Virus record (IMG/VR): IMGVR_UViG_3300028146_000003
Span: 1 to 54,010 of that record
Strand: one strand, 5' to 3'
DNA: 54,010 nucleotides
Origin: a virus
The notes beneath the pieces are model-generated. The model was not told where the DNA came from and did not search any database. It saw only the letters and a list, made by a program, of their open reading frames with translations. Positions 39,875 through 40,936 of the stretch are shown one piece after another. Both the position numbers and the translations under genes were made by a program. Position 1 is the first letter of the stretch, and each line of letters begins with the position of its first letter.

Positions 39875-40936
39875 CTATCTGCTCGCTTGAGCGTAACTAC
39901 CGAAGTCCGTCGATACGCCATATTGTCGGCCACTACCGCCGTAACCGCGAGCCAAACCATGCACACGAAGAACGCGCCCCACAGCAGCAAGAGCCAGAAA
40001 CGAAGTGACCGGCATGAAGAGAGGCATCGAATAGCAGCCAGCCACAGCGAACGCGAGAACGATGGGCCATTCTTTAACGTCTGTACGCCAGAGCGCGTAG
40101 CCGAACACAGGGAGCAGGAGTGCTGCACCAATCCCGTATTCGAATGCAAGCTGGAGAGCGTCATTGTGTACGTATTCCGGGTAGAACGAATAGGAGCCGT
40201 CCTGCGGCATCGCGATAGTATAAAACACACCCGGCCCCCAGCCAAGCCATTTCAGATTGGCCCATGCGGTGTTCCAAATCGACATGCGCAGTGCATCGCT
40301 CGGCAGTAGCGGCGTGAACAAGTAAAACGCGCCCGCAACCCCGACAGCGCCAAGTACCCAAAGACGGCGCACATAGCACGCGAGCGCGCCCACCGCGAGC
40401 GCAATCCACGCACCGCGCGAATGAGCCATAAACACCCCCGGCATGATCGGAATCGTCCAAAGCCACATGCGCTCCGAGACCAGAGCGACGGCGATCAAGG
40501 CCAGTATCAGACCCTGCTGGACGCTACTGATGTACAGACCAGGCATAGAGCCGGCGTCATTCGACGCCACTGTTAGCACAAGATCCCACCCGAAGTATTG
40601 CAGAACCGCCAGCGCCGACGACACCGACGCACCAACGGCCAAACCGGCATAAAGGCCCCTCATGTTCGTTGCGACGGTGCCGAACCACACGGACAGCCCC
40701 ATGATGACGATCAGCCACAGCCCAAATACGCTGGCGTACGGAGCGGGGCTGAACGGCAATCGAGCGGCGGCGTAGGCGACAAACGCCAAACCCGCCGCGT
40801 GGAACGCGGTAAATAGCCCGCTGCGCAACAACCCGAAAGACAGCAGCACAGCCAACACGGGCCATTGCGTGGCAATGTACGCCCCGGTGACGCCGGGGAC
40901 GTAGCAAAGCGACACAACGGCCCCTAACCAGAACAT
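39875..40936 (-). CDS. O-antigen ligase / Wzy-like polytopic membrane protein
   Basis: A 353-residue protein with about ten hydrophobic segments. The long periplasmic loop ends EYVHNDALQLAFEYGIG, matching the conserved histidine-containing motif of the Wzy/WaaL (O-antigen polymerase/ligase) superfamily. SRGAWIALAVGALA is also typical. These enzymes join or ligate O-antigen units on undecaprenyl carriers. Inside a phage late operon full of secreted proteins it suggests surface-glycan conversion. C-terminal 40 residues are hydrophilic. Confidence 0.75.
   Translation of the reverse strand: MFWLGAVVSLCYVPGVTGAYIATQWPVLAVLLSFGLLRSGLFTAFHAAGLAFVAYAAARLPFSPAPYASVFGLWLIVIMGLSVWFGTVATNMRGLYAGLAVGASVSSALAVLQYFGWDLVLTVASNDAGSMPGLYISSVQQGLILALIAVALVSERMWLWTIPIMPGVFMAHSRGAWIALAVGALACYVRRLWVLGAVGVAGAFYLFTPLLPSDALRMSIWNTAWANLKWLGWGPGVFYTIAMPQDGSYSFYPEYVHNDALQLAFEYGIGAALLLPVFGYALWRTDVKEWPIVLAFAVAGCYSMPLFMPVTSFLALAAVGRVLRVHGLARGYGGSGRQYGVSTDFGSYAQASR

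Follow-up and report, generated by a model that had tools for sequence, protein, structure and literature searches.

A predicted WaaL/PglL/Wzy_C-superfamily membrane protein encoded beside Sec-exported, virion-like proteins in an uncultured phage

The DNA analysed here, called the window, is the 54,010-base record of an uncultured virus infecting bacteria. It encodes a membrane protein that we assign, from sequence profiles, a structural model and catalytic residues, to the WaaL/PglL/Wzy_C superfamily. The reading we favour, tentatively and at a little less than an even chance, is that this protein is a glycan transferase of GT-CB fold, in an operon with Sec-exported virion-like adhesin proteins, and that its acceptor is an exported phage protein.

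The gene is an ATG-start ORF of exactly 39875-40936 on the minus strand. The EYVHNDALQ loop occupies residues 254-262, and the AlphaFold model has about 10-11 long helices, so that the polytopic protein with this loop, described earlier from the sequence, is indeed present. The ORF is not a chance one, since its product aligns over its full length with ORFs of other viral contigs (22 sequences, 22-61% identity) and dN/dS is 0.10 (L001/L002) and 0.12 (L006/L007). Judged by these ratios, the family is under purifying selection.

The window has a replication module (helicase, exonuclease, ssDNA-binding protein and DNA polymerase), a head-closure protein, a terminase and an endolysin-like protein. 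A PAPS-reductase-like gene is also found at 14513-15298 on the minus strand (PHROG 424, E 1.2e-26). Megablast of 30-50 kb of the phage gave no match in INPHARED, the terminase is less than 60% identical to those of INPHARED phages, and by these comparisons the window phage is not close to any of them. The integrase and resolvase profiles PF00589 and PF00239 have no match in the window, as the sequence-only reading had noticed for integrase, in a record that may be incomplete; among 42 records they match in one and two, respectively.

Superfamily, fold and catalytic residues

Pfam Wzy_C (PF04932) matches the window protein at E 2.9e-6 with 27.6 bits, against a curated cut-off of 31.7. A genome-level scan, in which the same frame is joined with neighbouring pieces, gives 35.6 bits, and Wzy_C matches 19 of the 22 aligned family members at E<=0.01 (best 3.4e-11). 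PglL_A (PF15864) matches neither the window protein at E<=1 nor the 22 members at E<=0.01. In sequence the protein stands well apart from all characterised members. NCBIfam gives no useful name, PHROG has no match, PDB sequence searches with family alignments, including that of 22 sequences, return nothing relevant, and hhalign of the family profile against single sequences is not significant. One of these comparisons, with E. coli WaaL, does place R217 and H257 in register with the known pair (numbered as in PMC3643930, in part).

The AlphaFold model was built from 13 sequences and has a mean pLDDT of 62.9 and a pTM of 0.68. Foldseek with this model gave no significant match (best E 0.26). 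When the Foldseek candidates were realigned with VIA-align, the first was WaaL (7TPG; Z 10.5, 208 aligned residues, 4.8 A), below the level of about 13 under which a Z for helical proteins carries a warning. Ranks 2-8 were FtsW/RodA entries (Z 7.8-6.1), and the next candidate had a Z of 5.4. The GT-CB class comprises WaaL-type ligases and the SEDS proteins FtsW/RodA (PMC10920833, in part), and because WaaL and then FtsW/RodA, all GT-CB, head the ranking, the predicted fold match is specific in kind; in strength it is middling. Membership of the Wzy/WaaL superfamily, claimed earlier from the letters alone, thus stands on the Wzy_C matches and the top rank of 7TPG, and the structural comparison with WaaL and Wzy proposed at that time places the model closest to WaaL, at this pLDDT and with Z under 13.

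Residues R174, R217 and H257 of the window protein match R191, R265 and H313 of WaaL, residues that serve there in Und-PP binding and acceptor activation (PMC10920833, in part). They lie in HSRGA, LRMSIW and EYVHND in the window protein and in NGTRGA, VRLKIW and EHAHND in 7TPG, and the pattern RxxIW...GxG...HND is common to both. R217 and H257 are kept in 22/22 family sequences and R174 in 21/22, down to 22% identity; N258, G232, G234, G268 and P305 are likewise invariant, and with them H257-X10-G268. This alignment omits L003 (the same protein as L002), L019 (a broken frame) and the second of two Wzy_C-type paralogues that the 63-kb viral contig L023 carries at 6425-7489 and 9980-11092, about 2.5 kb apart.

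Most polymerase families of clan GT-C1 have Asp or Glu where this His stands (PMC10920833, in part), and the acceptor-activating position in our family is His in all 22 sequences, never Asp or Glu. We had considered taking this His as the mark of a ligase rather than a polymerase. That argument was dropped because Wzy-beta of phage D3, whose polymerase activity is proven and which has a Wzy_C domain and 10 TM segments, depends on three residues, R254, R270 and H300, the last of them in an HX10G motif (PMC4815439, in part). In addition, PglL and WaaL cannot be told apart by simple comparison (PMC3643930, in part). The sequence therefore suggests a lipid-linked glycan transferase and would suit more than one kind of acceptor.

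Exported partners and distribution of the gene

The features of the region are collected in Table 1. As the sequence-only reading had it, the gene stands inside an exported cassette, among ORFs with signal peptides; the run of Sec-exported, beta-rich ORFs over 26572-42298 (minus strand) fills the apparent fibre/spike region. Its suggestion that the neighbours are secreted glycosidases found no backing: the two candidate products, which are 36.5% identical over their matched part, have no Pfam or NCBIfam match, and a PDB sequence search with one of them gave none. The 642-aa protein has no Pfam match. A second copy of the ExpA domain is also seen in relatives L050, L052, L054, L055, L061 and L062.

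Table 1. Predicted features of the exported-protein cassette and its flank in the window.
Coordinates	Strand	Feature	Basis
26572..27888	-	Exported 438-aa protein, far end of cassette	
31218..33146	-	Exported 642-aa protein, with an ExpA-type domain at the N-terminus; spike-like on visual inspection	
33143..34492	-	Exported ORF; resemblance to glycosidases seen only on visual inspection (ECWNEP, DSEGGW)	
34480..36165	-	Exported, paralogous to the 33143..34492 ORF, has WIEP	
38695..39522	-	Exported 275-aa protein, next in cassette	
39519..39830	-	103-aa protein; in several relatives without the transferase gene its homologues come right after ExpA	
39875..40936	-	Predicted WaaL/PglL/Wzy_C-superfamily polytopic membrane protein, 353 aa	Profile, model, residues
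40958..41497	-	ExpA, 179-aa Sec-exported protein directly upstream of the transferase gene, 4 Cys in mature part	
41561..42298	-	Conserved protein of 245 aa, no signal peptide; serves as marker for the phage group	

Visual inspection and a home-made rule both show a clear Sec signal peptide in ExpA. The number of Cys in the mature protein is even in 32/32 sequences, and where the CxxC pair is lost, both Cys are lost together. ExpA is thus apparently disulfide-bonded, and the even Cys would fit an oxidising, extracytoplasmic fate. Its AlphaFold model (pLDDT 89.4) is a beta domain resembling phage decoration and tailspike domains, with matches to tail-fibre and structural proteins in a viral library. 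The best Foldseek match in the PDB is weak (8eci_1, a phage Bridgette chain; E 0.023, 32% over 84 columns), and the VIA-align scores stay under Z 8, with cupins and beta proteins of other kinds among the matches. We call ExpA virion-like because of the viral-library matches and because an ExpA domain heads the 642-aa protein. That virion-like proteins are sent to the periplasm is a puzzle of its own.

The IMG/VR loci with a homologue of the transferase gene number at least 34, repeated scans of viral contigs having given 4, 13, 22 and 34. No close bacterial or prophage relatives appeared in two genome contig scans, which used short peptide patterns that may miss distant ones; there were no close relatives among plasmids, and no tblastn match among INPHARED phages. 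With the 41561-42298 neighbour as marker, 41 viral loci were found, and whole-record searches detected the transferase gene in 13 of these records. On a marker tree of 42 tips, which omits L089 (a near copy of L057), 14 tips have the gene, and its presence changes at least 10 times. The gene is thus patchy in the phage group, always at one site, behind ExpA.

Every one of the 14 group members that carry the gene has ExpA in front of it, with one small exported ORF between the two in L015/L088. The nearest tip to the window, L062, is without the gene, and its ExpA runs straight into the next gene. ExpA and the cassette can dispense with the transferase gene, since both persist in 22 of the 28 gene-less tips. 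The other six (L067, L068, L070, L072, L077 and L078) have neither an ExpA match nor the transferase gene; the five whose downstream ORFs were listed have long ones there for which no signal peptide is given, with a collagen-like start in L068, L072 and L078. Such ORFs occupy the apparent fibre/spike region in these related records.

Distant homologues follow a different exported protein, ExpB, which has two invariant Cys and, in a profile comparison of two ExpB proteins, no detectable similarity to ExpA. The gene follows ExpB in 10/15 loci, in eight of the ten with a 1-base overlap. Four of the other five ExpB loci are without the gene and one contig (L112) ends 213 bases behind ExpB, so that the fraction is 10/14 of the testable loci.

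Across the family, an ORF with a signal peptide ends between -160 and +30 of the gene start in 24/32 loci, compared with 37/170 control ORFs, which come from the same loci and include other cassette genes. For this count 36 loci were examined, and four with an unclear start were left out. By eye, four of the eight misses (L009, L016, L094 and L100) also have an exported ORF in front; the controls were not so corrected. This count replaced one made with a greedy gene caller, which missed the window's own ExpA and found signal peptides in 18/36 upstream neighbours, 13/34 downstream neighbours, 48/238 other same-strand genes within 5 kb and 32/227 beyond 5 kb. The gene keeps the company of exported proteins more strictly than exported proteins keep the company of the gene, and such a one-way association would be expected of an optional modifier of exported proteins.

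The Ser+Thr content of ExpA is 0.248 with the gene and 0.223 without it (Mann-Whitney p 0.014, relatedness ignored). With relatedness taken into account there are 6 pairs (p 0.125-1), a comparison that has no power, and the trend is not significant. No acceptor signature is obvious by eye in the ExpA of gene-bearing phages.

The acceptor

What is the acceptor of the predicted transferase? If it is an exported phage protein, as we favour, the membrane protein would sit in the inner membrane, made from the same operon as the Sec-exported adhesin-like proteins. R174 and R217 would bind the host undecaprenyl-diphosphate-linked glycan on the periplasmic side, H257 would activate the acceptor hydroxyl, and the acceptor would be ExpA or its cassette mates, making the protein a phage-encoded O-oligosaccharyltransferase. 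We infer the transferase activity, the donor, the periplasmic chemistry and late expression. Schulz et al. used adjacency of this kind, where it occurs outside LPS loci, to predict protein O-oligosaccharyltransferases, one of which was tested experimentally in Acinetobacter baylyi (PMC3643930, in part). Counting against this reading are the unmatched PglL_A profile, the dispensability of the gene to ExpA and the cassette, the lack of an obvious acceptor signature or a significant Ser+Thr trend in ExpA, the middling pLDDT and Z of the model, the weak Foldseek result and the E. coli WaaL profile comparison; PilO, too, is without the PglL_A motif (PMC3643930, in part). Adjacency to exported genes could also reflect a shared insertion site, and insertion into a variable adhesin region would give a similar picture.

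It is possible, though rather unlikely, that the protein acts instead on the host surface, much as the sequence-only reading suggested. As a WaaL-type ligase, or by competing with that of the host, it would change LPS or capsule late and so block re-adsorption or superinfection. Its fold and residues are the same as those of WaaL, its patchy accessory distribution at one site, with so many changes on the tree, is like that of surface-modifying phage genes, and phage-encoded Wzy proteins are described as altering O-antigen or capsule (PMC4815439 and PMC9241936, each in part). However, with no integrase match in the window a long-lived lysogen that could profit is not expected, lysis would probably come before much new LPS is made, and an action on the host surface leaves the pairing with two different exported proteins unexplained. 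That the gene accompanies exported virion-like proteins in two independent contexts suggests just as readily that phage proteins are glycosylated, a reading absent from the sequence-only account.

We regard it as improbable that transferase activity was lost or never present and that the protein has another membrane role, such as a scaffold or export factor for the cassette: its distance from characterised members would allow this, but the Arg/His pattern is kept at 22/22 or 21/22 across the family's whole range of identity, with dN/dS about 0.1. That it works like D3 Wzy-beta, as an inverting O-chain polymerase joining host repeat units, is quite improbable; H257-X10-G268 and the similar size recall that Wzy_C polymerase and its HX10G motif (PMC4815439, in part), but the window protein has no meaningful alignment to D3 Wzy-beta, a search of INPHARED with the latter finds only D3-like phages and VarioGold, most GT-C1 polymerase families have an acidic residue for the His (PMC10920833, in part), and the gene is not beside acetylase and polymerase-inhibitor genes as in D3.

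Known systems and implications

Among the closest known systems, WaaL (7TPG from Cupriavidus metallidurans, and E. coli WaaL; CAZy GT121) has the best fold match, the R/R/H residues and the HND motif. The window protein differs from it in length (353 aa, versus 419 for E. coli WaaL and 413 for the 7TPG chain), with shorter stretches between the catalytic residues, in having no significant sequence-profile match to it, and in being encoded in a phage operon rather than an LPS locus. The PglL/PilO (TfpO) O-oligosaccharyltransferases share the superfamily, the R/R/H residues and a gene beside that of an exported protein (PMC3643930, in part); however, the partner here is no pilin but a beta domain of a phage, and PglL_A is unmatched. 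No phage-encoded protein O-oligosaccharyltransferase was found by title or abstract start in a limited literature search.

D3 Wzy-beta and VG_p25 of phage VarioGold are, like the window protein, phage-encoded Wzy_C membrane proteins, and the D3 protein has the catalytic His; VG_p25 adjoins an ORF with a signal peptide (PMC9658991, in part). Neither has BLAST-level similarity to the window protein, and, unlike the window, both phages have an integrase. The D3 gene has seroconversion genes as neighbours and VG_p25 belongs to a putative moron cluster, whereas the window gene is in an exported-protein operon. In Acinetobacter, a Wzy carried by a prophage determines the linkage in the capsule (PMC9241936, in part). 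Pseudomonas phages vB_PaeP_FBPa19 and FBPa42 (INPHARED ON857931 and PP813864) have a D3 Wzy-beta gene, 95% identical, that is annotated as phosphatidate cytidylyltransferase, apparently a misnaming. Wzy_C proteins of temperate phages were thus already known (D3 Wzy-beta with its close relatives, and VG_p25); the window gene differs from these in its exported-protein operon, in a phage with no integrase match, and in being paired repeatedly with virion-like proteins that are exported.

Should a phage protein be the acceptor, these phages would carry a protein O-glycosylation enzyme that uses host lipid-linked glycan, which would help to explain why they export virion-like domains. In its fullest form, which we consider a minority possibility, an integrase-less phage lineage with its own O-oligosaccharyltransferase would place host glycan onto Sec-exported adhesin-like proteins that form disulfide bonds in the periplasm and leave the cell at lysis, and the phage proteins, or virions that pick them up, would wear host sugars. 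If the acceptor is LPS, phages without an integrase would carry out surface conversion. Either way, a WaaL/Wzy_C family is present in at least 34 viral loci, its member in the window lying outside the reach of PHROG and of tblastn against INPHARED. Since the relatives usually lie directly behind an exported-protein gene, host sugars may be put by the virus on the proteins it exports or on the surface of the host.
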